From a virus: a stretch of DNA of 25,069 nt. The first letter of the stretch is position 1. Each line of letters begins with the position of its first letter. The stretch covers positions 1 to 25,069 of the IMG/VR virus record IMGVR_UViG_3300005527_000273; one strand, 5' to 3'. The position numbers and the translations under genes are program-made. The notes beneath the pieces were generated by a model. That model saw nothing but the letters and a program-made list of their open reading frames with translations, did not search any database and was not told the origin of the DNA. Shown in pieces: positions 1 through 22,382 of this stretch.

Positions 1-509
1 CTATATTAATATTTTTAAGAAATACTGCCTTCGGACCTGAATATGATTATCTTATAACTGACCCAAAAACGGACAATAAATTTGAAGTCAAACTTATTGT
101 GGATGAGGTAAATTACATAAAACCTAAACATGAAATGGGTACAGATGGTTTGTTTAGCGTTGAGTTACCAAAATCAAAAAATAAAGTTAAATGTAAATTA
201 CTAAGTATAAAAGAAAGTAATGAAATTGAATCGATTAGTAATAATTACCCTTCAGGAATGATTGCACCAATAGTTACAAAAAAATTAGAGAGTCAGATAG
301 TAGAACTAAACGGGTCAACGGATAAGGGTGAGATTGCAAAAATGATTTCAAACATGCCAATTGCCGACTCCAAATTTTTAAGAAGATTTTTATCTGAGTG
401 TGAACCACAACTTGATTTAATAAAAACAGTTACAGCCCCGTCAGGAGAAAAAGTCAACGTAATGGTTGGTTTTGGGGTTGAATTTTTTCGCCCTTTCTTC
501 ACAATATAA
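1..509 (+). CDS. 26: gp26-type baseplate hub/tail assembly chaperone (5' partial)
   Basis: The reading frame is open from the window edge (frame starting at base 3) to TAA at 507-509, so the ATG at 99 is internal and the true start lies upstream. The visible part begins with residues like FLRNTAFGPEYDYLITDP, continues with DGLFSVELPKS, KVKCKLLSIKE and a C-terminal GVEFFRPFF. From memory this pattern fits the T4 gp26 baseplate protein family (Pfam T4_baseplate), whose members often end in a GxxFFWP-like motif. These proteins act in the cytoplasm during baseplate hub and tail assembly and lie just before the tape measure gene, as here. The end of the frame contains TTT TTT CGC, a candidate +1 shift site into the next small ORF. 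Family call is moderately sure; the biochemical role is inferred from position. Confidence 0.7.
   Translation, partial: ILIFLRNTAFGPEYDYLITDPKTDNKFEVKLIVDEVNYIKPKHEMGTDGLFSVELPKSKNKVKCKLLSIKESNEIESISNNYPSGMIAPIVTKKLESQIVELNGSTDKGEIAKMISNMPIADSKFLRRFLSECEPQLDLIKTVTAPSGEKVNVMVGFGVEFFRPFFTI
483..491 (+). other. Candidate +1 programmed frameshift site
   Basis: In the gp26 frame the bases read TTT TTT CGC, followed 15 bases later by the TAA. A tRNA-Phe in the P site could move from TTT to the better-pairing TTC, leaving the A-site CGC, a codon rarely used in this AT-rich phage. The +1 frame (codon starts such as 487, 490 and 520) has no stop from the site to 642, so the product would be gp26 fused to the next small ORF. 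This is prediction only. Confidence 0.4.
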
Positions 510-519
510 AAAAATTTTA

Positions 520-642
520 ATGGATGAATTTTATTATTTAATAAAATTTGCAAACTTTTCATACTTGGATTTACTTAAAATGCCAACATTCGAAAGAAAG
601 TACTTTTTGGATAAGCTAATATCTGAATCAAATAAAACATAA
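520..642 (+). CDS. Small ORF after gp26, possible frameshift extension (chaperone C-domain)
   Basis: This is a 40-residue ORF starting with MDEFYYLIKF and containing a pattern of leucine, then MPTFERKYFLDKLISES. It begins 10 bases after the gp26 stop. Short segments of the type YYL...FS...L..MP..xR.+F...L resemble, from memory, the extension domain of tail assembly chaperones (the T part of gpG/gpGT in lambda-like phages) and small ORFs found after gp26 in other myoviruses. It could be a free protein started at ATG 520, which has an A-rich leader with no Shine-Dalgarno, or the tail of a gp26 fusion made by +1 frameshifting. The frame is open without a stop well upstream of 520, which allows the second reading. 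Its position directly before the tape measure gene supports a chaperone role. Confidence 0.6.
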   Translation: MDEFYYLIKFANFSYLDLLKMPTFERKYFLDKLISESNKT

Positions 643-671: not shown

Positions 672-2468
672 ATGTTTTTTAATGACCCACAACTAGAAGG
701 AGGTGCTGCCAAATCAATAGCCGAGCAAATTGAGGCCTTAAAGGGTGCTATTAAAGCAAATATAGCAGCACTCAGTGCATCGGATGCATTTACAGCTTAC
801 AAAAATATAGAAAAAACCGCAATAAGTATTGCTGATAGTTCTAAGACCTTACAAAGGTCTATGGGTGGTGTTGTTATGGACAGCTCTAAATTTGCGAGTA
901 AATTAATTGAGTCATACAAAAACACCGTCAAAATAGGTGCCGAGTTTAAAGATATCACTGGAACAGTCCAAGGACTTGCTGAAAGTATGCAAAGAATGGT
1001 AGACCCTTCTTTGCAAACTATTGAAAATATGGTTGCTCTTTCACAGGCAACAGGTATGGGTGCTGGTGAAGTTGGTAAAATGGTTGGTGAACTTACTAGA
1101 TTTGGTGGAACACAGTTGCAAGCAACAGAAAAAATGCATGATTTAGCCGTTGAAGCTAGAAAAGTGGGGATTGATTCAAAAAAGTTTTTAACTGATGTCA
1201 ACGCCAATATGAAATCATTAAATGGTTTTGGTTTCGGTAATAGTGTAAAAGGTTTAACTGACATGGTAAAACAAGCTACACTTTTAAGAACATCTATTGA
1301 AAAAATTGGTGCAAGTGCATTACAATCAAAAATATTAGACCCTGAAGGTGCTATGGAAACTGCAGCATCATTTCAAATGTTAGGTGGTGCTGTAGGTAAA
1401 TTAGCGGACCCTTTTCAATTAATGAGAATGGCACAATCAGACATGAAAGGGTTGCAAGATGAAATTATAAAATCAAGTGCATCTGCCTTTAAATTTAATA
1501 GTGAAACAGGAAAATTTGATACTTCAGTTGCTGACATGTATAGATTAAGAGAACAAGCAGCGTTAATGGGTAAATCTTTGGATGAGGTAATGGAAGTTGG
1601 AAGAGAGGCTGCAAAGGCAAACTTTTTGAAAGATAGATTTGGTTTTGCGGATTTGGATGAGGATGAATTGAATTTAGTAACGGGACTTACTGAAATTGGG
1701 CCTGACGGTAAAGTAACGATTGATATACCTGGTTATGGTGAAATTGAAGAAGCTAATTTAGGTAGTGCTGAAGCCCAACAAGCATTAAATGATTATATGC
1801 AGAAGGCTGGTAAAGACGAAAAAGATATTGCGATAAATAACTTAACTATTACTGAAAATCAGGCAAAAGATGTAAACATTATTAAAAGTGCTATATTAAC
1901 ACAAATGGGTGTTCAAGATAGGGCTACTTTTTTGAAAAATATTGAAACCGCAAACGAAAAACTTGGTAAAGCCATAACAAACGGAGCTGAAACAACAGCA
2001 AATACTCTTGAAAAAACCGCTAGAGATACTGCGAAATTTGAAACAACCGCAGCAGGTGAATTACCAGACCCATTAATTTCTGAAAATGCAGTGAATAGAA
2101 TGATGGATGTACAAGAGGAAGTAAAAAAAACTATCAAAAAACCAATTGAACCGGTACCTACCGTTACCGGTAATGATATGTTATTTAAACCTGGAGGTGC
2201 CCCACAAATAATGGCTAAAGACACGATATATAAAGGAATAGTTGGTGATGAGGTTGCTTTCGGAACTAACTTAACAGACGCACTTAATAAAGGTGGTGGG
2301 AGTATTGGAGGTAATATAGATATTAACATTAATTTAAATGGGTCTATTGCTGGTGACCCAGGACAATTGAACAAAATGTTTAATTCTCCTGAAGTTCAAA
2401 AACAAATTATGGATACCGTACTTTATAAAATGAACGAATATAAAAGACAACAAGGCGTATTATCCTAA
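672..2468 (+). CDS. Tail tape measure protein (gp29-like by position and length)
   Basis: A 598-residue protein, mostly helical and rich in Ala, Lys and Glu. It contains a tape measure-like segment at about residues 100-250 (VDPSLQTIENMVALSQATG, followed by GEVGKMVGEL). Its C-terminal part at about 540-598 is Gly/Asn-rich (GGGSIGGNIDININLNGS) and is followed by an amphipathic end. Length is close to T4 gp29 (590 residues), the hub protein that sets tail tube length. Position after the gp26-type chaperone locus and before baseplate genes is the usual one for a tape measure. Using the general rule of about 0.15 nm per residue, a tail near 90 nm would be expected; this is inference. The ATG at 672 is preceded by an AT-rich leader with a TATTTAT motif. 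No membrane segment or peptidase motif is obvious. I did not recognise a precise family, so the call rests on position, size and composition. Confidence 0.7.
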   Translation: MFFNDPQLEGGAAKSIAEQIEALKGAIKANIAALSASDAFTAYKNIEKTAISIADSSKTLQRSMGGVVMDSSKFASKLIESYKNTVKIGAEFKDITGTVQGLAESMQRMVDPSLQTIENMVALSQATGMGAGEVGKMVGELTRFGGTQLQATEKMHDLAVEARKVGIDSKKFLTDVNANMKSLNGFGFGNSVKGLTDMVKQATLLRTSIEKIGASALQSKILDPEGAMETAASFQMLGGAVGKLADPFQLMRMAQSDMKGLQDEIIKSSASAFKFNSETGKFDTSVADMYRLREQAALMGKSLDEVMEVGREAAKANFLKDRFGFADLDEDELNLVTGLTEIGPDGKVTIDIPGYGEIEEANLGSAEAQQALNDYMQKAGKDEKDIAINNLTITENQAKDVNIIKSAILTQMGVQDRATFLKNIETANEKLGKAITNGAETTANTLEKTARDTAKFETTAAGELPDPLISENAVNRMMDVQEEVKKTIKKPIEPVPTVTGNDMLFKPGGAPQIMAKDTIYKGIVGDEVAFGTNLTDALNKGGGSIGGNIDININLNGSIAGDPGQLNKMFNSPEVQKQIMDTVLYKMNEYKRQQGVLS

Positions 2469-2506: not shown

Positions 2507-5500
2507 ATGGAGAGTCCACTATCATTTAATTCGAGCGAAAATTTTAGAAAAAAACTATTGGTGAGAAACCTTCCACCATACAAAGTAGATAGTGCTTTTT
2601 CAAATGACGGTAAACCAGGTTCTTCTGAATTTAATATTAATGACCTAACACCCATTGACTCCCCAAGTGTTGAACAAATAGGTAACCAACAAGAACAAAT
2701 TCTTTTACCTATAAATCAGTATGGTCCACAAACAAGTACTGGAGAATATGGAGACATCGTACCAATCAATATTAATTTAAATTATAAATCAAATGAAGGT
2801 GAATATGGATATCCTGACACTATAGAAAGTGATTTAGAGATTATTGGTAACAATACTGAAAAACAAATTATAATAAAAAATGTTTATAGACCTGAAAATG
2901 GTTTATCAGACTTCGGCTCAACTGCTTGGTACATTAATAATGATAAAGTTATTAATACTGTTGGTGAAGGTGAATATACGGTACAAGATACGATTGGTAG
3001 TAATTTAGAAACTACCGCAAATGCCGACCGACCTATTCTTATTACAAATAATCAATACGGACCTGAAAACCCTTCTAATGTCGAAGTTTCGATTAATAAT
3101 AATTTACAAACTAATGCTAACGAAGGTGAGTATGGTTTTCCTGATACTGTAGATAGTCCATTAGAAATAAAAGGAGAAACGGATAGACCTGCATTAATTG
3201 CTATAAATCAATATGGTCCTGAAAATTTACCAACAACCGAAGTATCAATAAATAATAACCTACAAACCAACTCAAATGAAGGTGAATATGGGTTTCCTGA
3301 TACTGTAGATAGTGAATTACAAATTGTAGGTGAAGACGTTAGAAAACCTAATTTCTTACAAAATCAATGGGGCCCTGAACAGGGACAAAGTGAAACTGAA
3401 GTTGAACCGTACAGAAAACAAAAAAATTTAGTAATACCACAAGGTAATTACGACGTTACTGATTCGGATGGCTCTCTTTTAGAACTTGTTGGAGGAATTA
3501 AAGAAACTGAAGCATACCTATCAAACAGATATGCTACGGGTGATGGTGAATATGACCCGACAGATTTCAAAACCCTTCAACAAGAGGCGTTACAGTTACC
3601 ATATGCTAATTCAGATAATACGTTTATATTTTTACCATCTACCTACACACCATATAGTATATTATTAAATGATGACCCATCGGGTTCTGATGGTAGTTTA
3701 TCACAAGACTCTGACTTAGCAAATATTGGCGCAAAACAATTAAATAAAGAATTTAAACATAGAGTTGCGCTTGAGTTATTTCAACAAACATTAGGACAAG
3801 TAAATATATTCAATTCTAATGTTAATCCCGATACTGGAGAAATATCTGCTCAACCAAATACCGACCCTTTCGATGCTATTGGTTTATTAACAGGTAATAT
3901 TCCTATTGTATCGAGAGTTTATAATATTACAACTCCTGATTTTCTATTTGGTCAAGGTATTAACTTTGCCGCTAAATTAGGTGGTCTTTATTCACCCTAT
4001 TCTTATATTCCTGGTGAGTATTTTGATTATCCTGAACGAATAGGTAATGGACCTTTTGAAAACCCATTATCATTAATAGGTGGGGCTTTAGGTTCTTTAT
4101 TTAGTGCTCTACAACCCGCAAATCAATCTTCATCTGAATTATTTGTTGAATTTACATCAGTACCAACACGTAAATTACTTTATGACCAATTAAAATATAA
4201 TCAGTACAGACCCGATTATAAAATAGGTAATAATTTACTCGCACCTAAAGGTGTGTTCTACCTTGGTGATAGAAAAAATCATTTGACAGAATTAATGTCC
4301 CCCGCACCCGAACTACCATATGCAAAAGATGGTAAAACCTCATCAATGGGACCTGTGCTTTCTTACTCTAATATGGGTAAGTTATATGAAGGAGAACAAT
4401 TAAATGAAACACAATTTGGTTTAAATAGTAGAAACTTATATAGTGCGGGAGCTAATAAAGATGGTGTTAAATGGATTGGTGCTGGTATCTTCGGTGGCGT
4501 AACTTGGATTGGTAGTAAGAGTCCGAAAGAGGATAACAAACCACTACAAGGTAAATTACAAGGTAGAGGTGGAGAGCAATTCGAAGACAATAGTGAATTT
4601 ACTTTTGGTAATTTAGTAGGTTTTGATTCAACTAAGTCTACTAATTTAGATTTCACACCAGGTTCTTTATTAGATGTAACACAAAAACTTGTAGATGCAG
4701 GGCAACGAAGTTCACAACCTTTAGAACATGTTGGAACCGCAATTAACCAAGTATCAAAAGTATTTAACGACGGATATCAAGAATTAACAAAAGGTTCAAG
4801 AGTTGTAAGATATACAACCCAAAACTCTAAACCTGATAGTAGCGCAACACCAACAGGTCTTGAGTATTGTAGAGTATTCACAAAAGACAGACCATACTAC
4901 ACTTATGACGAGTTACAAAAAACAGATGGTAATATAAGAGGTTATACTAATTCAGTATTAGACAACACTTACAATTTAAATATTGCACCAACTGACGGAT
5001 ATAGTATAAAAGATGGTAAAGTAAAAAAATACATGCTATCTTTAGAAAACTTGGCATGGAGAACATCAAATAAAAAGGGTTTTACTTATGATGATTTACC
5101 GGCTTGTGAAAAGGGACCAAATGGAGGTAGAATTATGTGGTTCCCACCATATGATTTAAGTTTTGATGAAAGTGTTAGTACACAATGGACTGACAACAAT
5201 TTTTTAGGTAGAACTGAACCGATTTATACTTACACTAACACATCAAGAAAGGGTAACGTTTCTTTTAAAATTATTGTTGACCATCCATCAATCCTTAATG
5301 TATTAGTTGATAAAGAATTAGAAAATGTTGGAAACAATGGAGAAATAACACAAATTATTGATTCATTCTTTGCGGGATGTACTAAGTACGATTTATGGGA
5401 CTTAGTTAGTAAATTCCCAATGTTTACTCCTAATGATATTTTTGAAACTCAAATATTAACTACGGAAGATGTTGTCACTGTAGTACAAGAAAACAGTTAT

Positions 5501-8500
5501 TCTATACCTGAACAAGAAATTGATATTGATAGTGAAATAGAACCTACACCTACACCATCACCATGTGTTGTTTTAAAATACCAAATTGGTGTTACCACCG
5601 ATTTAACGTATACGGGTTGTTCAGGAGATGTAATAACACTAACAGGTTTAGCACCAAACGCGAGTGGAGAAATATGTGCAATAAGAAGTAATGCTTATAA
5701 TTACTCAACACCTGACCCTACAAATACTATAACACCAACAGGACAAAATTGTGTTCAAACAACACCTGGACCAACTCCAGGACCAACACCTACACCAACA
5801 CCTACAGCAACCGAACCACCATTAAATATTCAATTTCCGGATATTGGTTTTTATTTTGATAACAACTTTCCTGACGGAACAGGAAATAGATACGGTACCA
5901 CTGTTACTCAAGATTTTGAACATTGGTACGATTTATATATTGCTTCAAAAAACAATTATTTAAATGATGGAAAACCTGATACCTATAGTGCTGCTTTGAA
6001 TAAAATATTTTCATACGATGATAGTACTAAAGCAGATAAAACTAGTTTCATTTTAGGACTTGATGATAGTAATGCGGCTAAAATAGAATATCTAAGGAAT
6101 TATGTAGATACAAGAAAAGAGGAAATAGGTATTTTTTTCGATTATATAACTAAAGAATTTAATGAAGCCAAAAGTTTCATACCAAAACTAGGTAAAATAT
6201 TAGATGACGGGGGAACCGTTGAATTTGATTTAGAGGCTAGTGCATCCGCTGTTACCGACCCTGAATATAATCTAAATTTATCTAAAAGAAGAAATGATGC
6301 AGTTTTGAAGTGGATATTAAAACAAAAGTCACCAAATCAAACAACTTTACAAAATTATAACCAACAAGGTAAATTGAAAATTAATCAAACGTCCGTTGGG
6401 GAAAGTCCCACACTGGAAGACAAACCATATAGATTTGTTGTATGTTCTAAAGGTTTTAAATCATCGAAACAAGAAGGTGTTGTGTCAATAAACGCAATGG
6501 CTTGTCGTAGAACTAAAATTAGTAATATCAAACCTATATATAACCAATCACAAAACGAAAACCAATCACAAAATTCAACTGTTCCATTAACTAATGGTGG
6601 TGATTCGTCACAAACTGGTCAAGAATTATCAGGTCAAGATTTCTTAGTGATTGCACCGAATCCACAACCCGGTGTTGATGGTGGTGTACCACAACCAAAT
6701 GACACAACTAACCCTTTTGTTACCCAAGACCCAATTTCACAACCTTATACAAATACACCAAATACGAGACAACAAGACGTACAAACACAAACACTACAAA
6801 AAAGAAAAGATTTAACAAAAAGATTAGCAAGAAAACTTTTAACTGAATGTAATTATTTTGAATACATCAAACAAAATGAACCAATGGTTTATGATGGTAT
6901 TAAATCAAAAATAAAATACTTCCAACCTGCATTCCATTCAATAACGCCAGAAGGACTTAATGCTAGATTAGTGTTCTTACAACAATGTATGAGACCTGGA
7001 GACACGATACCTACTGTATCTCAGTCAGATAGCGGTCAACAAACATTATTATTTAATGATGCGACGAACAGTGCTTTTGGTGCACCTCCAGTTTGTATTT
7101 TAAGAATAGGTGATTTTTTCCATACAAAAATTGTTATTGACCAAATAACTTTTAAATATGATGATGGTAGATTTGATTTAAATCCTGAAGGTATCGGAGT
7201 TCAACCAATGATTGCAACTGTGAATGTATCATTCAATTTTATAGGTGCTCATGGTTTGGCAGGTCCTGTCGCTCAATTACAAAATGCATTATCATTTAAC
7301 TATTATGCTAATACTGAAATGTATGACGAAAGAGCCGAATCAACAGAACAACTTAATTTAGAAGTTTATGATGCTCAAATACTTTCACAAGTAAAAGATG
7401 ACTTAAATGTTGTCAATACGGAAGCACCAAGACCGGTAGTTAATGACGGAGGAGTTACGATTGGGACAATAATAACTAATACAATTGATTTAAACACATC
7501 TATTACTTCAGGTACCATCAAGTATAAAGATGTAATGAGTGGGTTGGCAAATTTAACAAAAGAATATACTGAAAAAACACTTTCTACTTTAGAAAAAATA
7601 AATGAAAATTATTTGATTGGTGGACTACAGGTGTTCACAAAAGATAGAAAATATATAGAAGGTAATTTTAATTATTTAGGTGGAAATATAACAAATACTG
7701 CAAACATATTTGGGTACTCTTATGACGTTCAAACTAAAATTGAAAGTATTGCAACTAAAGCGAAGGAAGATGTTGATAATGGAGACGTTTGTCCACTTCT
7801 TTCAGGATTAGCAAATCAAAACTTATCAAACGTTCAAGTGAGAAAAGTTAAAAAAGAATTAAAAAATCAAATAGATGCTAAAAAAGAACAAATGTTGAAT
7901 GATTTAGAAAATTATGCAAATGAAATTAATAATATACAATACCCATTAATAAGTTCAATTGACAAAATAAATTATGTTTCAGATGCCCATGATGGGTTCA
8001 TAAAGAAAAATAATTCAGTAGTTATCTATAATCTTTCAGGAACAACACAGATAACACAACCAACCCTATCTGGTGTGAACAATACATTACAAGAACTTGT
8101 TGAAGATTCTTATTTGGTGAAAAATAACATAAATGATTTTTATCAAAAGTTACAAGATTTCAGTTTAATACCAACAGGTGAGGATGTATACAGAGACGAT
8201 TTTACTCAAAATACTTATATATCCAATCAAAACTTTTTACCACAAGAAACTGTATTCTTTATTTTATTTGGTAAAGACATAATAGATGATTCTGATAAGT
8301 TTGCAATAGATTTGATAGATAAAGCAATACCAAATTTAAATCAAGATGATGAAATTGCTTGGTTGAAATTCTTAGATGAAAATCTAAATCAACCGAATAC
8401 AGGACTTAGAGATTCATACAAAGCTTCTAAAACTGTTGTCGATAAAAAAATTGCAGATTTCAGAACAACGTATTTTAATTCTACATTTACAAATTATAAA

Positions 8501-8644
8501 CCCTATAATTTAGATAAAGAAAGAATAATGTGGTATGAATCCCAAGTAACAGCACAAGCACCTTATACTGATAATTTATCTGCAATTTACTCGTCAACAA
8601 ATGCGACGTGGGACAAATTTAATTTACAAAAAAGTTTTCAATAA
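2507..8644 (+). CDS. Giant baseplate protein with tandem repeats and OmpA-like insert
   Basis: A 2045-residue virion protein. Residues about 70-340 hold tandem repeats marked NQYGPEN...NEGEYGFPDTVDS. Near residues 875-930 are WFPPYDLSF, then FLGRTEPIYTYTNTSRKG and VDHPSI, which resemble tail tube/baseplate adaptor domains of contractile systems. A Pro/Thr-rich linker (about 1012-1021), a four-Cys segment (about 1022-1082) and a second PT-rich linker (about 1086-1105) lead into an OmpA-like domain (about 1107-1335). A Gln/Asn-rich linker (about 1343-1432) follows, then NPEGIGVQPMIATVNVSF and QNALSFNYYANTEMYDERAE (about 1559-1610). That last part is a conserved-looking baseplate core, from memory shared with large myoviruses. 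The C-terminus is helical. The stop overlaps the next ATG by one base (TAATG). I infer a tail-tube/baseplate junction protein decorated with inserts that may touch the host envelope. Exact T4 counterpart unknown. Confidence 0.7.
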   Translation: MESPLSFNSSENFRKKLLVRNLPPYKVDSAFSNDGKPGSSEFNINDLTPIDSPSVEQIGNQQEQILLPINQYGPQTSTGEYGDIVPININLNYKSNEGEYGYPDTIESDLEIIGNNTEKQIIIKNVYRPENGLSDFGSTAWYINNDKVINTVGEGEYTVQDTIGSNLETTANADRPILITNNQYGPENPSNVEVSINNNLQTNANEGEYGFPDTVDSPLEIKGETDRPALIAINQYGPENLPTTEVSINNNLQTNSNEGEYGFPDTVDSELQIVGEDVRKPNFLQNQWGPEQGQSETEVEPYRKQKNLVIPQGNYDVTDSDGSLLELVGGIKETEAYLSNRYATGDGEYDPTDFKTLQQEALQLPYANSDNTFIFLPSTYTPYSILLNDDPSGSDGSLSQDSDLANIGAKQLNKEFKHRVALELFQQTLGQVNIFNSNVNPDTGEISAQPNTDPFDAIGLLTGNIPIVSRVYNITTPDFLFGQGINFAAKLGGLYSPYSYIPGEYFDYPERIGNGPFENPLSLIGGALGSLFSALQPANQSSSELFVEFTSVPTRKLLYDQLKYNQYRPDYKIGNNLLAPKGVFYLGDRKNHLTELMSPAPELPYAKDGKTSSMGPVLSYSNMGKLYEGEQLNETQFGLNSRNLYSAGANKDGVKWIGAGIFGGVTWIGSKSPKEDNKPLQGKLQGRGGEQFEDNSEFTFGNLVGFDSTKSTNLDFTPGSLLDVTQKLVDAGQRSSQPLEHVGTAINQVSKVFNDGYQELTKGSRVVRYTTQNSKPDSSATPTGLEYCRVFTKDRPYYTYDELQKTDGNIRGYTNSVLDNTYNLNIAPTDGYSIKDGKVKKYMLSLENLAWRTSNKKGFTYDDLPACEKGPNGGRIMWFPPYDLSFDESVSTQWTDNNFLGRTEPIYTYTNTSRKGNVSFKIIVDHPSILNVLVDKELENVGNNGEITQIIDSFFAGCTKYDLWDLVSKFPMFTPNDIFETQILTTEDVVTVVQENSYSIPEQEIDIDSEIEPTPTPSPCVVLKYQIGVTTDLTYTGCSGDVITLTGLAPNASGEICAIRSNAYNYSTPDPTNTITPTGQNCVQTTPGPTPGPTPTPTPTATEPPLNIQFPDIGFYFDNNFPDGTGNRYGTTVTQDFEHWYDLYIASKNNYLNDGKPDTYSAALNKIFSYDDSTKADKTSFILGLDDSNAAKIEYLRNYVDTRKEEIGIFFDYITKEFNEAKSFIPKLGKILDDGGTVEFDLEASASAVTDPEYNLNLSKRRNDAVLKWILKQKSPNQTTLQNYNQQGKLKINQTSVGESPTLEDKPYRFVVCSKGFKSSKQEGVVSINAMACRRTKISNIKPIYNQSQNENQSQNSTVPLTNGGDSSQTGQELSGQDFLVIAPNPQPGVDGGVPQPNDTTNPFVTQDPISQPYTNTPNTRQQDVQTQTLQKRKDLTKRLARKLLTECNYFEYIKQNEPMVYDGIKSKIKYFQPAFHSITPEGLNARLVFLQQCMRPGDTIPTVSQSDSGQQTLLFNDATNSAFGAPPVCILRIGDFFHTKIVIDQITFKYDDGRFDLNPEGIGVQPMIATVNVSFNFIGAHGLAGPVAQLQNALSFNYYANTEMYDERAESTEQLNLEVYDAQILSQVKDDLNVVNTEAPRPVVNDGGVTIGTIITNTIDLNTSITSGTIKYKDVMSGLANLTKEYTEKTLSTLEKINENYLIGGLQVFTKDRKYIEGNFNYLGGNITNTANIFGYSYDVQTKIESIATKAKEDVDNGDVCPLLSGLANQNLSNVQVRKVKKELKNQIDAKKEQMLNDLENYANEINNIQYPLISSIDKINYVSDAHDGFIKKNNSVVIYNLSGTTQITQPTLSGVNNTLQELVEDSYLVKNNINDFYQKLQDFSLIPTGEDVYRDDFTQNTYISNQNFLPQETVFFILFGKDIIDDSDKFAIDLIDKAIPNLNQDDEIAWLKFLDENLNQPNTGLRDSYKASKTVVDKKIADFRTTYFNSTFTNYKPYNLDKERIMWYESQVTAQAPYTDNLSAIYSSTNATWDKFNLQKSFQ
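2714..3517 (+). repeat. In-gene tandem repeats of about 52-57 codons
   Basis: Units begin at the codons for N(Q/V)(Y/W)(G/R)P at 2714, 2879, 3050, 3206 and 3362. Spacing is 165, 171, 156 and 156 bases, always a multiple of three. The units at 3050 and 3206 are closest to each other and share INNNLQTN and NEGEYGFPDTVDS. A degenerate unit follows 3362. Many third-position differences show they are old and maintained at protein level, not a recent DNA duplication. Confidence 0.85.
5827..6498 (+). other. OmpA-like (peptidoglycan-contact fold) domain encoded inside the baseplate gene
   Basis: Residues about 1107-1330 of the 2045-residue protein begin with a beta-strand-like IGFYFDNNFPD. Helices follow, then VEFDLEASAS, PEYNLNLSKRRNDAVLKWIL and a closing GES motif. 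This follows the order of the OmpA C-terminal family: xGHTD/xGHAS, YNxxLSxxRAxAVxxyL, GxGES. The Arg of LSxxR is kept, while the usual Asp of GHTD appears as Ser (ASAS). Domain assignment is by eye. Confidence 0.6.
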
Positions 8645-8961
8645 TGGATTACTACAATAGATATAAAGATTTTTTGATTAACGGACAACAAACTGTTGTT
8701 CCGTTTTTATCTATACCTGGTAGAGTTACAGACCAGCAATATTTGTATAGACAAGGAAGAAGTAGGTTAGATAAAATAAGTTTTGAAAAATATGGAACAC
8801 CATATTTTGGTTGGTTAATATTGGCAGCAAATTCTTTATATGGTGGACTTGAACAAAACATACCTGATGGTACAATATTAATTATTCCTTTTCCATTAAC
8901 TGCGGCATTACAAGATTATAAAGCTGCTTTAGATACTCACATATTCTATTATGGCCGTTAG
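8644..8961 (+). CDS. 53: gp53-like baseplate wedge protein
   Basis: A 105-residue protein. The core DKISFEKYGTPYFGWLILAAN, followed by NIPDGTILIIPFPL, matches the pattern of T4 gp53 and related LysM-like baseplate proteins (D.IS..yYG.p.yWWlI...N, then IP.G..L.IP). In T4, gp53 joins the wedge sectors to one another and around the hub. T4 gp53 is about 196 residues, so this is a short version limited to the core. The start overlaps the upstream stop by one base and its last 11 bases overlap the next gene's start (ATG 8951), which indicates translational coupling within the baseplate operon. Upstream bases show no Shine-Dalgarno. The family call is fairly good; the wedge role is by analogy. Confidence 0.7.
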   Translation: MDYYNRYKDFLINGQQTVVPFLSIPGRVTDQQYLYRQGRSRLDKISFEKYGTPYFGWLILAANSLYGGLEQNIPDGTILIIPFPLTAALQDYKAALDTHIFYYGR

Positions 8962-11900
8962 ATTAAAACAAAATAAAAAAATCTTTATTGAGACCGATTA
9001 TGATAACATTGTTGTTGTTAACCCAAACGAAGTTTTTTCTCCCGACGGTACAAAACAAGAACGCCTTGTTGACCATGAAGATTTAGTTTATTATGCCAAT
9101 TTAGAAACATTTATAATCCCAAGAACTAAGTTAGCTATTGGTGATAATTTTGACTCACCGGTTATTAATACAACAAGTATCGCAACAATGTTTGCGGGTG
9201 ACGACGCGTTGAAAATTAATTTCATGAAACCAAAAGGTAAGACACAATTTGATACAAGTTGGTCAGACCAATTGACGGGAGAAGGCACAAGAACTTTCAA
9301 CGGAGCTAATCAATCAAGTGAAAGAGTTGTGAACTTTGAAGGTAGACAATCTTTTAAACGTTCCGTTTCCAACCCTGAAGATACACAATTATTAGGTATA
9401 AAAGAAATAAGAGTTAATATTAAGGGAACGGGTGTTCCTGAAGTAAATATACAATTAGTCGATATACAAGGAAGGTCTTTATTTGAACAAGGAGAAAATT
9501 CATTATATTCTGCATTTTTTAATTTTCCTTATCCATTATTTTATTTGACGTTGAAAGGTTATTATGGTAAAGCTGTCAAATATAGATTATCATTAATGTC
9601 ATTCAACGCAAGTTTTGATGCGGACACAGGTAATTATAATATTTCACTCAAACTAATTGGTAAATTCACTGCACTTCTTTTTGATACGCCTTTATCTTAC
9701 GCGGTAAACGCACCAAAAATGTATAATACCCAAATTACCGTAACACAAGCAAGCACAGGTAATAAGAACGTCTTCAATACATATAAGGGTAGACAAAAAT
9801 TAGAAGAGGTTTACAAAACCTATATGAGAAAAGGTTTAATACCTGACAACTTTCCGATGCTCTCGATAGAGGATTTTGTTTTGAGAGTGGAAAACTTTGA
9901 ATCTAAATTGAAAAAAAATTTAGAAACTCAGGCAGATTTTACTAAGTTAAACGATTTGAAGTTGTTTGCGGATACTTTGATTAATTTAAGAAAAAAAGTT
10001 TATGATTATTCTATTAATAATTTTCTTGATAGAACAAGTTTTTATGTTGTCGGTGAAGAAATATATTACCCTTTCAAAAAAGAAGTTGCGTTACAGTCTA
10101 GAGAAGATTACAAAACATTTATAGACAAAAATATAATTGATTATACAAAACAATTGAAAGACAATGCAACTTTTGGTGAAAAAGGAGAAACAAAAGACCA
10201 AATTACTATTTTAACTAAAAATAAAAAAGATGTAATAAAAAAATTAGATTTTAATGCTTGGCAAAACAATAGGGCCGATGTGTTAAATACATACTTATCA
10301 AGGTATAGTAGAAATTTAGAAGCAGAAAATCCTGATGAATATAAAAAATTTATTGAAAACGAAGCAAGAAATGCTCAACTTACAACACAAGTAAGAGATG
10401 AAAAAGGCCAAATCATAAATGACACGCCTGATTATTTTGTTTTTGGGAACAAAATTGTTGCTGACGGCATATACGTCAAAAATTCTTATTTAGATAAGAT
10501 TGACGAAATGCAAAAAAGTTTAGAGGCAAAACAAAAAGTTATTGAGGATACGTTAACAAAATATTATGCAAGTTTACAATTAAAAAACCCAAGTGAAGGT
10601 GGATTAGGATTTAAACCAACGATTAGAAACATTTTTGCGATAATAATTGCAGGTGCCGATGCTTTTTATAGATTGATGGAAGATAACCATGAAGAAGCAT
10701 GGAATGTAAGAACTGATAAGGACAGGTTATTAGCGGTAATACCAGCAGAAAAAAACTTTTCAGTTGATGCTGTGAAAAGTATACAAAAGTCAAGTACGGA
10801 ATTAAATGATGATAATGTTGTATATCCTTGGCCTTTATATTTTACATTAGAAAAACAAGAAAATGGTAGTGATTTATATACAATACAATATCCTGGAGAC
10901 GCGAAGTACATAAGACAGACAAAGGCTTATGATTATAGAGTTTGGCCCGAAGTTGGTTTTGTTGAGGCATACATAAAGGCTTCATTAGAAAAAGAAAAAC
11001 CAACTTCTAATTACTCATATGACAACCCAACAGATGTAACTAAATATGTTTCTTGTAATGCTTTAGAGTTCCCATTCAAAACAGCACCATATCAAGATTT
11101 GAATGCTATTAAAACATTTTATGAAATATTTGAAAGAAGTTATATTAGTTCTCACTATGGAAACTTACCACTTGATTTATCACAAAAAAAACAGATAGAT
11201 AAATTTTATGGAGATATTGAAAGTTCTAATATAGGTTTAGTTGCTCCTGAGGATATTACAATCAATCAAAATTTAAAGAATTTAAAATTCAATTCATTAG
11301 ACAAATTGATTGATTATATGAAAACAATATCAAACAATGGTAAAGGACAAAGCTGGCAAACGTACATACGAGATATATTCAACACAGAATATATTAAAAA
11401 CTTACTACAAAACGTCAATGAAATTTATTCAATCGACACATTATCCGATAGGTCTGTGAAAGTTTCTGCTGACCTACCATTGGCAACCAATATGAAAGAA
11501 TTTTTAGAGGATAGTGGGACATCCAAAAAAAATACGTTAGATACGTATCCATTTACTGATTTAACATGGTTACAAGAAAATATGGCAAACGGAAGTAATA
11601 TAGGTGCGTTTGAAGATTATAATAATACCACAAGAAGTTACATTTATTTAGATGATAAAAAGACTATCGCTAGAATTAATGAAACTGAAAAATACCCTAA
11701 TTTAAAATTATTCACAAATAACACGGTATTTCAAAGTAACACACAAGCATATTTAACAGAAGTAGGGTCAACTGAAAAAATCAATTCAAGATTATCTCTT
11801 AAAAACTTTTTTGAAACAAGACAAGACAAAGATTTATATTTAACTGAATCATATATTAACTATGGAACAAGTTATAGTGGAAATATCGGAACTTTTATTC

Positions 11901-14900
11901 AAACAACATCATTATTAAACACACCATATTTTGTTAATGCTCTCATCGATGGGGTGACAAAACAAAAAAATAATCAAGAAAACCCATTTGTAGGTTTAGG
12001 TTATTTGTATTTGAACTCATTACCACTGATAACAACCAAAGAAAAAATAAAAGACATAACAGATAATGTATTAACGGATTTAGATTATTTAGCTGCAACA
12101 TTTAATAAATTTTCAGCAATACATCAAGTACCTTATGCTTGGGTATTAAAGTACGGTTCAATATGGCATAGATATAAAAAATACATAGAAGATAATGTAG
12201 ATATATTAGACGATTGTTGGAAAAATTTTGATTTTAATGTTGCTTATGCGCCAACAACAGGTGATAGTACAACCACATACACAATATTAGACTATAGTGG
12301 TAATCCTCAAAATATCACACTACAAGGTGCTCAATTTTATCAAAATCCACAAAACTCATTCATATTAAGAAATACGTTCGATGTTGGGTTTTACCCTAAA
12401 GTTGTAAATTCATTAGAATATTATTTGAATGAAGAAGATTTATTAACGGGTTATACAACAAGTGATTTTGCGGATGTATATAATAAAGGTTTGAAAATTG
12501 GTTTCAATAGTGAGTCTACCACAATGTATGGTACAGGATTTGACCCAAATAATGGATTCAGAGAGTTCTTAAAGAAAAACTATTTTACATATAGATTAAT
12601 TGAAAACACTGCGGTTCAGTCGCAACCAGACACAATAAGACTATACCCATCAATGGGAGGTATACCATTCGACCAATCAATTTTTGAATGTTTCAATCAA
12701 ACGAATAAAATTACCGAAGAAATATATAACAACTCCTCAGTTTTCAACGGTACTGTTAGGTCATTATGGGGTATTTCTAATTTTGGATATTATAACAACG
12801 ATTTAATTAAAAAACCATTACCGACCGAATATCTTAAAGTTATTAAAAATAATGCACCACTTCAAAACGATTTTAATATTGTTAGTAATGATTTAACTTA
12901 CTCAAAAATAGACGAAATATTCAATTTGTTTGATGTTGATTTATTGGATAAAATGGAAGAAAAGTTTTTAACTTTCTGTAATTTTAAACCATTGGCGAGT
13001 GAATTAAAATTGAATGAGGAAAATATTACACCTAATTATATAGACACTAACGGTTTAACAAATTCAGACGTTAAATTATTACGATATCAGATTAAAAACA
13101 TTTTTGATTTTGATAGTAGTTTATTTAATAGTGTGAATCAAAACGAAGATGGAATAGAATTAGGAAAATTACAAATTTCAAATTTATATACATCATTAAA
13201 TAAATTTTTAAATTTTGATTGCGTATTAAAAATTGCAAACCCAACAAACTTTGATAGAAAATTATTTGATTCATTTAGTACTATTTCAAACTTACAAGTA
13301 CAAGACAAGTATAAATTTGAACCTTATGTGAAAGGTACGTTACCCGGTGACGGAACAGCAACTACTTTATTACAAAGTATAACTCAAAACCCTTCTGCTT
13401 GGGATGCGTTCAGAAAATATTTAGGATATACTACAATACCTGGGTTAGAGTTTCAAACACAAGTACAACCGGTGTTACCATCCGTACCTATCGCACAAAA
13501 TAATCCACCTACACCATATACACCACCCGTTGCGGGACAAAATTATAGAACGTTCCAAGATTTATGTAGTGGTACGTATTTTAATATAATTGACCCAAAT
13601 GATAACACAAGCACAACATCATTTAATTACTATAATAATGACGTATGGTTCTTAGAGGTTGTTGATAACACATCACAAACAAAAAAATTCTGTGCAAGAA
13701 AGGTACCTGATAGTGCGACAACAACCACATATAATTTGGAGAATGATGACAATTACCCACAGACAAATGCGGTAGGAACAACACCGGCAAGTTACTGTAT
13801 GTCATTTTATCAAACACAATTAAATTGCCAACAATCACCTTTACTAGACCCAATACAATTACAATTTATTGGAGATTCGGCAACAATATTACCTGACGTA
13901 CCTGGTGATGGTGATTATATTAACATTGAAAAAACAGACGGTACATATCAGGTGTTTAGAATTATAGGTGACCCTAATTTTGATGCTAACAAGATTGAAA
14001 ATATAAGATTTTATCCACCGGGAACCGACCCAATAAACCCACCAATCGGTACTAGTATATATCGTGAAGGGTTTGGGGGTGTTGACACAAACTACGCGAG
14101 AGTATTTAGAGTTGATAATAATGTAGGTGGTAATTATGTTATGACGGTAGAATACACCCCTAATTCCCCAAATGAAATTATATTATCTGCGAATGTTTCA
14201 ACCCTACCTGGTTTACAAAACACAATACCACAACAAACAACAGTACCCCAACAGGCACAACCATTACAAAATACACAAAAATCTTTCTTAACTGATTTCT
14301 TCATTGATAATTCAATTGCATTTAATGAACAAAATATTATTACTTTATATCCATTAGTAAGACTTTATGGTGAACAAAAAAGACTTGACCCTACTTATGA
14401 CAAAACTAAATTCACGACATATATAAATAATTTTTTAGAGGATAGAAGAAGTTTACAGGACAAAATGGTTACAGAAACTTTTTCCAACCTAAATAAAATT
14501 TTAAATAATATTGATGTAACGGTTGATTTACCTACTACTGCGCTTAACGGTGACACTACAAAATTAGCTTTATATAATACATTGAAAGGATTTAACGATA
14601 AATGGATTGCTGGCTCTGATTTAAAAAACAATACTTTGTTTGAGGACTTTTTATTTATGGATAGGGCAAATAGTGATTTAGGTAATTCATTTGTATTAGA
14701 CGTACAAAAAGTTGTAAATGCGTTAGACCTTAAGTCAAAACAAGACCAAAGTTTAATGAGTGTAATAAGTAGAATTTTGGAAGAAAATTATTTTATTTTT
14801 ATGGCAATGCCTGCTTATATTAATTTTTATGGTATACAAAGAGCGGTAAAAGATGGTCAACCATTGAAAGATGTTGAAATTGGTAATTCATTATTTGGTA

Positions 14901-16240
14901 CGTATTTAGAAGTTGACTATACAAACTCAAGTCCCAAATTTTTGTGTTTATATGTTGGAAACCCTTCAGAATACCCTAAACCAAAAGAGAACACTTTCAA
15001 TCGTTTTGGTGATGATAGTTTTGACTTGAGAATGTCGGATAACCCACTTAGAGTTTCGGACCCAAAAACAAACTATTCGTTGAGTAATCGTGTTGTTGGA
15101 TTTGCGGTTGATTTTGGTATAAGAAATCAAAACATATTCAAAAGCTTGAGTCTAGATATGTCAGAAATGAAAAACACATCAGAGTCATTCAAAGTTTATG
15201 CTGACATGGGTAGTTCTGTTGCTGGTGATAAAGTGGCACAACAATCCGCATCGCTTTATAGTATATATAAATCTAGGTCATATAGTTGTGGTGTAAGTAG
15301 TATGGGAAATGTCATGATACAACCTACAATGTATTTTGTACTAAGACACGTCCCTATGTTTTATGGTCCATATTGGATAACTGAAGTGAACCATAATATT
15401 AATACTGGCGGATTTAATACCGAATTTAAAGGTACTCGCATACCAAAATATGCATTACCAAAAGTGGATAATTTATTGGCGTCTGTAAATCAAATAGTAA
15501 TAACTAAGATTAAAGAGTTGGCAGCAAAGGATAAAGAAAAACCAACAACTGAAAATGAACCAGTCACACAAAATCCAGTACCTGTTAATTTAGCTAGCCC
15601 TGAAAATAATTGTGAAACAATTACACAATATCCTTCAGTACCATTTGAAACACTTGTACAGAGCACGTTCACAGATACAGATATCATACCTGTAATAAAA
15701 CAAGAAACAAGTGACACATCTTTACGAGCTTTAATTTATGGATTGACTAAAGGAGTTGTTCCAGGAACCACAATGAATAACGGTATTACAAATTGCATCA
15801 ATAACAACCCATTCGGAATTAATACAATAATAAATTATAAAGGTAATCTTCCTAGTTTGATTTTAAAACAATCTTGTATAAATATTGCAAATACACCAAC
15901 CCCTTTAGTTAAGTTTAATAATTTAACAGAGTCTATAAAGTTCATGATTTCATACATGACTCAGGTTATAAATTTAGTACCACAGTTAAAAACATTAAAT
16001 CCTGACGCCGACGAAAACAAACAATATGGAAAGGCTTTATTTCAGTTAGTATATGCTTCTTGGTTAACTCAAAAAGCATTTGGTAACCCAACTGCGGTAC
16101 CACCACAACCCCCATTAAACGCTCAACAGATAAAAGATACTACTATACAAGATTTTACAAATCAAAATAAATTAGACACATATAACAATTGGGTTGAAGA
16201 ATTTGCCCGAAGTTATAAGTATTTTAAACAAAACCCATAG
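8951..16240 (+). CDS. Giant baseplate hub-like protein (2429 residues)
   Basis: The N-terminal region (about 1-265) is beta-rich, with YLTLKGYYGKAVKYRLSLMS and an SFDADTGNYNISLKLIGK-type segment typical of baseplate adaptor barrels. The middle (about 270-2020) is mostly unrecognised, with helical stretches. One segment at about 1503-1780 is bounded by Pro/Gln-rich linkers and contains four cysteines. Residues about 2031-2175 (MGNVMIQPTMYFVLRHVPMF, then YGPYWITEVNHNI and GGFNTEFKGTRIP) resemble the last barrel of hub proteins such as gp27/gpD, which binds the tail tube and spike. After a charged, Pro-containing linker (about 2190-2222), a C-terminal domain contains NNPFGI and VKFNNLTESIKFM, which loosely recall muramidase/glucosaminidase-type folds, but I see no clear catalytic Glu. 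The start overlaps the gp53-like gene by 11 bases. Hub role inferred; T4 splits comparable functions over gp27 and gp5. Confidence 0.6.
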   Translation: MAVRLKQNKKIFIETDYDNIVVVNPNEVFSPDGTKQERLVDHEDLVYYANLETFIIPRTKLAIGDNFDSPVINTTSIATMFAGDDALKINFMKPKGKTQFDTSWSDQLTGEGTRTFNGANQSSERVVNFEGRQSFKRSVSNPEDTQLLGIKEIRVNIKGTGVPEVNIQLVDIQGRSLFEQGENSLYSAFFNFPYPLFYLTLKGYYGKAVKYRLSLMSFNASFDADTGNYNISLKLIGKFTALLFDTPLSYAVNAPKMYNTQITVTQASTGNKNVFNTYKGRQKLEEVYKTYMRKGLIPDNFPMLSIEDFVLRVENFESKLKKNLETQADFTKLNDLKLFADTLINLRKKVYDYSINNFLDRTSFYVVGEEIYYPFKKEVALQSREDYKTFIDKNIIDYTKQLKDNATFGEKGETKDQITILTKNKKDVIKKLDFNAWQNNRADVLNTYLSRYSRNLEAENPDEYKKFIENEARNAQLTTQVRDEKGQIINDTPDYFVFGNKIVADGIYVKNSYLDKIDEMQKSLEAKQKVIEDTLTKYYASLQLKNPSEGGLGFKPTIRNIFAIIIAGADAFYRLMEDNHEEAWNVRTDKDRLLAVIPAEKNFSVDAVKSIQKSSTELNDDNVVYPWPLYFTLEKQENGSDLYTIQYPGDAKYIRQTKAYDYRVWPEVGFVEAYIKASLEKEKPTSNYSYDNPTDVTKYVSCNALEFPFKTAPYQDLNAIKTFYEIFERSYISSHYGNLPLDLSQKKQIDKFYGDIESSNIGLVAPEDITINQNLKNLKFNSLDKLIDYMKTISNNGKGQSWQTYIRDIFNTEYIKNLLQNVNEIYSIDTLSDRSVKVSADLPLATNMKEFLEDSGTSKKNTLDTYPFTDLTWLQENMANGSNIGAFEDYNNTTRSYIYLDDKKTIARINETEKYPNLKLFTNNTVFQSNTQAYLTEVGSTEKINSRLSLKNFFETRQDKDLYLTESYINYGTSYSGNIGTFIQTTSLLNTPYFVNALIDGVTKQKNNQENPFVGLGYLYLNSLPLITTKEKIKDITDNVLTDLDYLAATFNKFSAIHQVPYAWVLKYGSIWHRYKKYIEDNVDILDDCWKNFDFNVAYAPTTGDSTTTYTILDYSGNPQNITLQGAQFYQNPQNSFILRNTFDVGFYPKVVNSLEYYLNEEDLLTGYTTSDFADVYNKGLKIGFNSESTTMYGTGFDPNNGFREFLKKNYFTYRLIENTAVQSQPDTIRLYPSMGGIPFDQSIFECFNQTNKITEEIYNNSSVFNGTVRSLWGISNFGYYNNDLIKKPLPTEYLKVIKNNAPLQNDFNIVSNDLTYSKIDEIFNLFDVDLLDKMEEKFLTFCNFKPLASELKLNEENITPNYIDTNGLTNSDVKLLRYQIKNIFDFDSSLFNSVNQNEDGIELGKLQISNLYTSLNKFLNFDCVLKIANPTNFDRKLFDSFSTISNLQVQDKYKFEPYVKGTLPGDGTATTLLQSITQNPSAWDAFRKYLGYTTIPGLEFQTQVQPVLPSVPIAQNNPPTPYTPPVAGQNYRTFQDLCSGTYFNIIDPNDNTSTTSFNYYNNDVWFLEVVDNTSQTKKFCARKVPDSATTTTYNLENDDNYPQTNAVGTTPASYCMSFYQTQLNCQQSPLLDPIQLQFIGDSATILPDVPGDGDYINIEKTDGTYQVFRIIGDPNFDANKIENIRFYPPGTDPINPPIGTSIYREGFGGVDTNYARVFRVDNNVGGNYVMTVEYTPNSPNEIILSANVSTLPGLQNTIPQQTTVPQQAQPLQNTQKSFLTDFFIDNSIAFNEQNIITLYPLVRLYGEQKRLDPTYDKTKFTTYINNFLEDRRSLQDKMVTETFSNLNKILNNIDVTVDLPTTALNGDTTKLALYNTLKGFNDKWIAGSDLKNNTLFEDFLFMDRANSDLGNSFVLDVQKVVNALDLKSKQDQSLMSVISRILEENYFIFMAMPAYINFYGIQRAVKDGQPLKDVEIGNSLFGTYLEVDYTNSSPKFLCLYVGNPSEYPKPKENTFNRFGDDSFDLRMSDNPLRVSDPKTNYSLSNRVVGFAVDFGIRNQNIFKSLSLDMSEMKNTSESFKVYADMGSSVAGDKVAQQSASLYSIYKSRSYSCGVSSMGNVMIQPTMYFVLRHVPMFYGPYWITEVNHNINTGGFNTEFKGTRIPKYALPKVDNLLASVNQIVITKIKELAAKDKEKPTTENEPVTQNPVPVNLASPENNCETITQYPSVPFETLVQSTFTDTDIIPVIKQETSDTSLRALIYGLTKGVVPGTTMNNGITNCINNNPFGINTIINYKGNLPSLILKQSCINIANTPTPLVKFNNLTESIKFMISYMTQVINLVPQLKTLNPDADENKQYGKALFQLVYASWLTQKAFGNPTAVPPQPPLNAQQIKDTTIQDFTNQNKLDTYNNWVEEFARSYKYFKQNP

Positions 16241-17305: not shown

Positions 17306-18160
17306 ATGGCAAATTCAGTATTAGATTCAGTACTTGCGCAGTACGAAAAGAACTCAACAACTACGGGTTCACAAAAATCAAACATTTCACAAGAAGACAG
17401 ATTGAAGAAGTATTTTTCAGCAATCCTTCAGAAGAATGAAAAATCCGCATCACGACGTATTCGTATCTTACCTACAAAAGATGGTTCTTCACCATTTGTT
17501 GAAGTATGGTATCACGAAATCCAAGTAAACGGACAATGGGTTAAGTTGTATGACCCTGAAAAAAATGACAACGAACGTTCACCTTTGACTGAAGTTTATA
17601 ATGAACTTATTTCAACAGGTAAGAAAGAAGACAAAGAATTGGCATCACAATACCGTTCACGTTTATTTTACATCGTAAAAGTAATTGACCGCGACAACGA
17701 ACAAGATGGTGTTAAATTCTGGCGATTCAAACACAACTACAAACAAGAAGGTGTGTTAGATAAAATTCTTCCTATTTGGAAAGCTAAAGGTGATGTAACT
17801 GACGCCGAGAAAGGTCGTGACTTAATCATCGAGCTTACAAAAGCAAAAACACCACAAGGAAAAGAGTATACCGTTATTCAAACAATCATGTATGATGACC
17901 CTCAACCTTTACACGAGGATAAAGAAATCATGGAAGGATGGCTCCAAGATGAACTTACATGGAATGATGTGTATTCAAAAAAACCCGTAGAATATTTAGA
18001 AGCAGTTGCGGTTGGCGAAACACCAATGTGGTCATCTGAACTTAAAAAATATGTTTACGGTGAAGAAGCTGAAATTTCACTTGGAGGGGCAAAACAAGAA
18101 ACACCAACTCCTGTTGACCCACAAGCGAACGAAGAACCAGCAGAAGATTTGCCATTCTAA
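17306..18160 (+). CDS. 32: gp32-type single-stranded DNA binding protein, zinc-less
   Basis: A 284-residue protein that coats ssDNA in replication and recombination. The pattern follows T4 gp32: RRIRILPTKDGSSPF (T4 AVIRFLPSKND..PF), WYHEIQVNGQWV (T4 HGFKKNGKWY), then VKVIDRDNEQDGVKFWRFKH (T4 [20 protein letters not shown]). The T4 zinc ligands (His, then three Cys including CPVC) fall at DPEKNDNERSPLTEVY here. The protein contains no cysteine at all, so no gp32-type zinc site is possible. The C-terminus is acidic and ends in EDLPF, like the host-partner-binding tip of bacterial SSBs. Nine of ten Arg codons are CGN, unlike the AGA-rich neighbours, which suggests selection for high expression. 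Its own promoter lies upstream and a strong hairpin lies downstream. Confidence 0.85.
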   Translation: MANSVLDSVLAQYEKNSTTTGSQKSNISQEDRLKKYFSAILQKNEKSASRRIRILPTKDGSSPFVEVWYHEIQVNGQWVKLYDPEKNDNERSPLTEVYNELISTGKKEDKELASQYRSRLFYIVKVIDRDNEQDGVKFWRFKHNYKQEGVLDKILPIWKAKGDVTDAEKGRDLIIELTKAKTPQGKEYTVIQTIMYDDPQPLHEDKEIMEGWLQDELTWNDVYSKKPVEYLEAVAVGETPMWSSELKKYVYGEEAEISLGGAKQETPTPVDPQANEEPAEDLPF

Positions 18161-18168
18161 ATTTAATT

Positions 18169-18210
18169 AAGCATGGATACTTTTAAACATATTGTATCCA
18201 TGCTTTTTTT
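18169..18210 (+). terminator. Strong intrinsic terminator after gp32
   Basis: GCATGGATAC (18171-18180) pairs perfectly with GTATCCATGC (18194-18203). The stem extends by flanking A-T pairs around a 13-base loop and is followed by a T run to 18210. It separates gp32 from the recombination/replication genes, allowing far higher gp32 mRNA levels. No clear host-type promoter is visible between it and ATG 18234, so downstream genes may depend on read-through or an unrecognised promoter. Confidence 0.9.
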
Positions 18211-18233
18211 ATAAACAAAATTAAAAACACAAA

Positions 18234-19462: not shown

Positions 19463-19483
19463 TAACAATTAAAAACAAAAAAA

Positions 19484-20491: not shown

Positions 20492-20496
20492 AAATT

Positions 20497-20949: not shown

Positions 20950-20988
20950 TCATATTTATCATATACAAAAAGAAAAAAATCATAGAAT

Positions 20989-22368: not shown

Positions 22369-22382
22369 ATTAATTTAAAACT

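Follow-up and report, generated by a model that had tools for sequence, protein, structure and literature searches.

A probable programmed +1 frameshift and a predicted upstream hairpin in the gp26-like tail chaperone gene of an IMG/VR virus fragment and its relatives

The gp26-like gene at the 5′ edge of a 25-kb IMG/VR virus fragment (the window, meaning the whole 25,069-nucleotide stretch analyzed) ends early, and an open +1 frame runs on beyond its stop codon. Do ribosomes change frame here to make a second, longer protein, and what would push them forward? The window edge cuts into the gene, whose zero frame closes with GTT GAA TTT TTT CGC CCT TTC TTC ACA ATA TAA. The TAA lies 15 bases beyond GAA TTT TTT CGC (first TTT, 483 to 485; second TTT, 486 to 488), and the +1 frame has no stop from 463 until the one at 640 to 642. 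These coordinates, on which an earlier note had based its proposal of a +1 fusion at TTT TTT CGC, were confirmed. The 40-residue extension proposed there is correct as a count from the ATG at 520, but the full extension, read through the shift, has 50 residues after Phe-Phe (490 to 639). If tRNA-Phe moved from TTT (486 to 488) to TTC (487 to 489), translation would give VEFF-ALSSQYKKILMDEFYYLIKFANFSYLDLLKMPTFERKYFLDKLISESNKT, a product of 296 residues when the 5′ part is taken from the related locus L003. CGC is rare in the window (4 of 7,870 codons in the 13 other open reading frames [ORFs]), and an in-frame TTTTTTC is absent from those 13 ORFs. From the comparisons below, we consider it very likely that the locus specifies a programmed +1 frameshift yielding short and long chaperone forms, probably stimulated by an upstream hairpin that refolds. 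The features are listed in Table 1.

Table 1. Features of the gp26-like locus (window positions)
Feature	Position	Strand	Remarks
gp26-like tail assembly chaperone, zero frame, short form	3..509	+	PF12322, phrog_150; start codon precedes window edge; full length 252 residues in L003/L020
Outer helix, 5′ arm (predicted)	433..440	+	Window fold; conserved core GCCCCG, 435-440
Nine-base bulge UCAGGAGAA (predicted)	441..449	+	Conserved
Inner helix and loop (predicted)	451..472	+	Window fold pairs 451-458 with 465-472; clade consensus register pairs 450-456 with 466-472
Outer helix, 3′ arm (predicted)	473..480	+	Conserved core UGGGGU, 473-478, 4 nt before the T run; window fold adds two pairs, to 480
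Slip site TTT TTT C (proposed)	483..489	+	Proposed P-site tRNA-Phe slip, 486-488 (TTT) to 487-489 (TTC)
Rare zero-frame A-site codon CGC	489..491	+	CGN in 75/75 distinct relatives (from the best 80 of 598 plus 7 earlier loci)
+1-frame extension, C-terminal domain of putative long form	490..642	+	50 codons plus stop
Zero-frame stop	507..509	+	4 to 7 sense codons between second Phe and stop in 102 clade 1 places
ATG in extension frame	520..522	+	Start not conserved
598-residue ORF in tape-measure position	672..2468	+	Identity suggested by place only; no informative Pfam or PHROG match

Relatives of the locus (clade 1) were found with gp26 N-terminal peptide patterns that are blind to the slip site. 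The best 80 of 598 matches plus 7 earlier loci gave a conservation set of 87 loci with 75 distinct gp26-plus-extension proteins; counts out of 87 and 75 below refer to this set. Left out of the 87 were L002 to L005 and L009 to L011, which match the window at 100% (L020 represents this sequence; L009 to L011 sit on the same contigs as L002 to L004), and L008, whose letters are identical to those of L007. TTTTTTCG was present in frame in 87/87 loci, and every one of the 87 also had the early zero-frame stop and an open +1 frame leading into the same conserved domain (in 3 of the 75 distinct proteins the extension reaches the contig end). Stops in the +1 frame between the site and the ATG, the pattern that the earlier note had held to speak against a fusion, occurred in 0/87. 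A further subclade found with the gp26 of L165 showed the same layout in 53/53 complete loci, a count that omits 4 incomplete loci among 57.

The codons at the site were also constrained. A DNA scan of IMG/VR in which both Phe codons were degenerate returned at least 120 places, and among the matches listed, all 120 were gp26 genes by HMM. The Phe codons were TTT TTT in 117 of these and TTC TTT in 3, and the second Phe was TTT followed by C in 120/120, including the 3 with TTC first, as expected for a P-site tRNA that slips from UUU to UUC. The re-pairing proposed earlier, from TTT to TTC with a rare CGN codon in the A site, fits this pattern. In a separate codon survey the slip site was conserved in 100/100 distinct places. 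The Arg codon at the site is CGN in 75/75 distinct relatives, compared with about 15% of Arg codons in the rest of gp26; CGG and CGC together account for 37/75, compared with 0.5% each elsewhere. The neighboring Pro is CCT in 74/75, and the Gly is GGG in 75/75 (11.5% elsewhere in gp26). Part of this bias arises because the codons after the slip are doubly coding; the GGG codon lies upstream and is not explained in this way.

A feature beyond those in the earlier note is a predicted bulged RNA hairpin upstream of the slip site, with compensatory changes in both helices. The hyperconserved stretch GCC CCG TCN GGA GAA lies 48 to 34 nt 5′ of the T run, and its partner is YGGGGY, with 4 nt between the last base of the partner and the T run. 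The order is GCCCCG, a nine-nucleotide bulge, a seven-pair helix with a nine-nucleotide loop, and a continuous 3′ strand. The outer helix was present in the minimum-energy fold of 73 of the 75 distinct sequences. When 75 sequences (70 distinct) from the same set were aligned without gaps, 94.1% of cells paired, compared with at most 61.8% when the partner was slid out of register. Two-sided changes numbered 43 versus 15.9 ± 3.0 in shuffles (0/500 reached this value), while the number of pairs with such changes, three, was not unusual (98/500 shuffles). In this alignment the covariation is that of the inner helix; the outer helix varies on one side only, without a two-sided change. When 175 distinct stretches were pooled (137 of them less than 95% identical; 14 pairs), 147 two-sided changes were counted versus 60 ± 8 in shuffles, with a shuffle maximum of 80. 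In divergent members the outer helix is recoded. L108, L189, and L203 carry GCACC/GGUGY, which keeps the core pairing and is synonymous on both arms, and L165 and L316 carry GUCC/GGAC, with the core pairing kept and the end pairs lost. One outer pair is lost in three members (L038, L194, and L358). All six outer pairs form in 107 of the 120 pattern loci among the matches listed.

Folding energies were consistent with this structure. For 102 places in clade 1 (75 taken from the 87 loci as representatives, and 27 distinct members of the L165 subclade), upstream folding had a mean z of −2.27 against dinucleotide shuffles, compared with −0.57 for a control stretch, and a mean z of −2.58 against synonymous-codon shuffles that keep the protein. 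The named pairs formed per sequence (0.872) lay only about one standard deviation above the synonymous null (0.756; standard deviation, 0.108). The stretch in the window itself has a folding energy of −15.6 kcal/mol (z, −2.0), with 8/200 shuffles equally good. The helix core ends 7 nt from the P codon, or 5 nt by the window's own longer fold. The GGGG of the outer helix, 8 nt from the slip codon, was considered as a Shine-Dalgarno-like stimulator and rejected: it pairs within the mRNA with the upstream CCCC, the two arms co-vary in some divergent members, and the spacing is also unlike that of prfB.

What kind of protein would be extended? The window-cut protein scores 17.6 bits against PF12322, below the cut-off of 24.5, and phrog_150 was matched by 38/38 alignment members (7.3e-11 for full-length L020). 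An AlphaFold2 model of the zero-frame protein, built from the same 38-row alignment (A8, which is the 42-row A6 minus three named-record rows and L013), had a pLDDT of 85 and a pTM of 0.80, and the predicted fold matches T4-like hub proteins in BFVD. By phrog_150 and these hub matches, the protein is homologous to the T4 gp26/PF12322 family; an hhalign comparison of A8 with the single T4 gp26 sequence found nothing (0.16%). Foldseek alone gave no significant PDB match for the zero-frame model. A second look at the PDB (VIA) placed the HK97 tail assembly chaperone 2ob9_B at the top (Z, 5.7; next, 2.2; a Z under 8 is not decisive), with an rmsd of 3.3 for 79 residues over residues 132 to 220; given the Foldseek result, we take this match as support and not as proof. 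For the fused protein, a sequence search of the PDB and a tblastn search of phages with the fused C terminus gave no match, and the one PDB match of profile A1, a ribosomal protein at E 0.15, was taken as chance.

Gene order points the same way. Tail sheath and tail tube genes lie upstream of gp26 in L003, and in immuto, SP-15, and LIS04 gp26 lies between the tail tube gene and an annotated tape measure gene. Both gene order and predicted fold thus support the tail chaperone idea of the earlier note. Elsewhere in the window, two very large tail-region ORFs (2507 to 8644 and 8951 to 16240; 2,045 and 2,429 residues) had no PHROG match at E 0.01. Positions 17306 to 23330 form a T4-like replication block with a gp32-like protein, a RecA-like protein (below the Pfam cut-off), a 5′-3′ exonuclease, a DnaB-like helicase, and a ribonucleotide reductase small chain. 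Ribosomal protein bS21 (PF01165) was seen in 5/20 large clade 1 contigs (L449 to L452; records behind L038, L328, L331, L334, and L104). A scan of genome contigs for a host gave a single distant match, in a MAG titled Alphaproteobacteria, and we claim no clade 1 host.

The layout extends beyond clade 1. A search seeded by Microcystis phage Mel-JY01 and Flavobacterium phage immuto gave clade 2, sampled as the best 80 of 562 loci, of which 79 have the +1 layout (two of the 79 open +1 frames, those of L241 and L270, reach the contig end). Start-codon counts in this clade used 77 of the 80 loci, those with 40 or more codons left or with 25 scanned. The usual clade 2 arrangement is TTT TTT T followed by TGG or TAC (TTT TTT T in 71/76 distinct loci); the others are CTT TTT T, TTC TTT T, TTT CTT T, L289, whose site is the last Phe pair within a longer run, and L281. 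No folding was detected on either side of the site in clade 2 (z, −0.23 and −0.37; 80/80 places), and since the +1 layout occurs there without the hairpin, the hairpin is no general need. The exception, L281 (IMGVR_UViG_3300020442_002272), has TTC TTC, and its extension, which lies in the −1 frame, follows the canonical −1 heptamer A AAT TTC. It looks as if the frameshift direction had switched, which, in a single contig, is suggestive only.

Cyanophage-like loci (L369 to L448; best 80 of 594, with 2 repeats left out) have the opposite arrangement. T TTT TTC stands in the −1 phase in 78/78 distinct loci, so these share the letters TTTTTTC with clade 1 in a different phase. In 77 of these 78 places, folding was downstream (z, −2.24; control, −0.45) and not upstream (z, +0.19). 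Comparison by hhalign shows the extensions of clades 1 and 2 to be homologous (98.5%). The cyanophage extension has a weak profile link to clade 2 (59.7%) and none to clade 1 (2.2%); its motif and position do agree. The annotated gp51 of cyanophages S-SSM7 (L228) and S-RIM8 (L229) resembles the C-terminal part of a putative gp26 −1 frameshift product. Among named phages, the +1 layout was also found in Rhodothermus phage RM378, Bacillus phage SP-15, Listeria phage LIS04, Streptococcus phage vB_SagM-GXN1, and the 484-kb LR756508, and the −1 layout in Atu_ph07, PA5oct, and RAS14. The hosts of +1-layout isolates, all distant from clade 1, are Flavobacterium, Rhodothermus, Microcystis, Bacillus, Listeria, and, according to its record, Streptococcus.

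T4 itself has genes 26 and 51 on opposite strands (L018, NC_000866). In single-target searches, the cyanophage zero-frame profile matched T4 gp26 (33.9 bits), and the cyanophage fused profile matched the C-terminal half of T4 gp51 (20.0 bits). These profile matches suggest that T4 has a separate gene for each of the two forms, short and long, which would be in keeping with the title of Vladimirov et al. 2022. An extension-like motif also lies at the C terminus of T4 gp51 itself.

Could the extension instead be a separate small gene, started from ATG 520 by re-initiation or internal initiation, with no fusion? Annotated cyanophage gp51 is a precedent for such a gene, the window has the ATG, 38 of the 75 distinct relatives have an ATG in the first 25 extension codons, and such an ORF is annotated in several named phage records: of 11, Mel-JY01, immuto, SP-15, Atu_ph07, S-SSM7, S-RIM8, RAS14, and RM378 have the extension as a separate ORF, and in SagM-GXN1, LIS04, and PA5oct it is unannotated. 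However, ATG is missing from those 25 codons in 37/75 and all of ATG, GTG, and TTG in 22/75; in a larger clade 1 set the corresponding counts were 61 and 35 of 101 distinct extensions. Conservation of the +1 frame already begins at the slip site, 5′ of any ATG, and a separate gene leaves the fixed TTTTTTC, the CGN codon, and the hairpin unexplained. We regard a separate gene as very improbable. Slightly less probable still is slippage of RNA polymerase on the T6 run, with the extension made from edited transcripts. Most sites do carry a T6 or T7 run, and identical letters are read in the −1 phase in one clade and in the +1 phase in another. Against this, L100, L134, and L180 have TTC TTT C, in which the longest T run is 3, and the run is likewise interrupted in immuto and L294 (TTT CTT T), L292 (TTC TTT T), and SagM-GXN1 (TTC TTT C); in all of these sites the second codon could still re-pair at +1. 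With the window being a single metagenomic contig, one might suspect a sequencing error, a decayed gene, or a chance overlap. The same layout in 87/87 loci on many contigs, together with coding periodicity in the +1 phase over extension codons 10 to 32 (0.61/0.68/0.42), leaves error or decay practically no probability, and conservation in all 87 loci excludes a chance overlap.

A different question is whether the frameshift is real and the hairpin serves another role, for example in autoregulation or mRNA stability, or as a protein-binding site at the bulge. The bulge, UCNGGAGAA (441 to 449), is nearly invariant, beyond the needs of a plain stimulator; clade 2 has the +1 layout without a hairpin; and GGAGAAA could pair with downstream UUUCUUC in 98.6% of cells. 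For this last pairing, a candidate pseudoknot, no covariation was found. The fixed distance of 4 nt between the helix end and the slip site argues against a separate role, as does the −1 clade, which lacks upstream folding and has downstream folding instead. A different role for the hairpin therefore appears unlikely, and stimulation of the +1 frameshift remains the preferred reading.

The following course of events would account for the conserved features. Most ribosomes presumably terminate at the TAA and release the short form (TAC-N, 252 residues). Some would pause with tRNA-Phe on the second TTT and the rare CGC in the A site, and the paused tRNA may slip one base forward onto TTC, giving the long form (TAC-NC, 296 residues). 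The hairpin (433 to 480), unwound by the ribosome, would refold behind it and probably push the slip forward, substituting for the Shine-Dalgarno duplex of prfB. The weakest step is the distance: with 7 nt from helix to P codon, refolding must reach into the exit channel. By analogy with lambda gpGT, the long form may link the tape measure to the tail tube. Comparison of the loci directly gives the slip site, a conserved open frame that lacks a fixed start, a hairpin that covaries, the order of the genes, and a predicted fold like that of a chaperone; from these we infer the slippage itself, its efficiency, and the role of the hairpin. On a broader scale, clade 1 would combine +1 slippage with an upstream hairpin, and the cyanophage-like loci −1 slippage with downstream folding. 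We think it reasonably likely that hairpin refolding behind the ribosome drives a natural +1 frameshift here and that slip direction and the side of the folded RNA have switched together within one gene family.

The prfB gene is the textbook bacterial +1 site and leans on Shine-Dalgarno pairing. A naturally occurring +1 site preceded by a covarying hairpin would, if real, offer another way to push ribosomes forward, and the −1 and +1 clades of one gene provide matched natural sites for comparing what sets slip direction. For annotation, it matters that the shifted extensions of the 11 named phage records are entered as separate ORFs or overlooked. A literature search covering few subscription papers found no +1 frameshift in a gp26-type gene and, at +1 sites of bacteria or phages, no upstream hairpin of natural origin.

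A review presents frameshifting of the lambda G/GT type as conserved widely “except T4” (PMC5009743). Lambda gpG/gpGT resembles clade 1 in having a short protein plus a rarer frameshifted long form, encoded between the tail tube and the tape measure; in addition, the closest PDB fold to the clade 1 zero-frame protein is the HK97 chaperone. In contrast with gpG/gpGT, clade 1 would slip forward and not −1, belongs to the gp26 family, and has its hairpin upstream of the site. The earlier note knew of no described case at T4-type gp26 loci, yet such loci do appear in print: T4-like phages carry poly-T −1 signals in their TAC-N genes (PMC12846349, citing Vladimirov et al. 2022). These TAC genes (gp26/gp51) share family, place, and poly-T site with our loci, but they are −1, whereas clades 1 and 2 are +1. 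Vladimirov et al. 2022 may describe part of the +1 findings. The canonical −1 heptamer X XXY YYZ does not describe clade 1, in which the extension is +1 in 87/87 loci. Forward shifts in the same kind of gene are known from the TAC of haloarchaeal myovirus HSTV-2 (PMC5009743) and from the PRFect training set, with 350 forward cases, most of them annotated tail assembly chaperones (PMC10274946); the accessible portions of these two sources mention no upstream hairpin. Bypassing in T4 gene 60 (PMC11194080) was considered as a parallel and was of no use here.

The nearest mechanistic relatives are prfB and a set of hairpins upstream of model frameshift sites. In prfB, a P-site tRNA slips forward at a slow A site, destabilized by a Shine-Dalgarno duplex 3 nt from the P codon (PMC8710568, PMC12421855). 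Clade 1 shares the pyrimidine run on which a P-site tRNA would slip forward, the putatively slow A site, and the duplex upstream. The A site of prfB is a stop, however, and that of clade 1 a sense CGN codon; its duplex is formed with the Shine-Dalgarno sequence and lies 3 nt from the P codon, compared with an mRNA hairpin whose core ends at 7 nt, and a Shine-Dalgarno-like duplex at 3 nt with an A-site stop was not found in clade 1. In E. coli 70S lysates, a refolding upstream hairpin can replace the Shine-Dalgarno duplex, stimulating +1 and attenuating −1 shifts, with an effect that grows with hairpin stability (PMC6321510). The distribution among our loci, in which the +1 layout of clade 1 has its hairpin upstream and the −1 layout its folding downstream, fits this rule. 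Like the clade 1 hairpin, those of PMC6321510 and PMC3639245 lie directly 5′ of a +1 site. They are test constructs, with which stimulation of +1 shifts by upstream hairpins has so far been shown, or a coronavirus attenuator, whereas the predicted clade 1 hairpin is natural and conserved at a putative phage +1 site.
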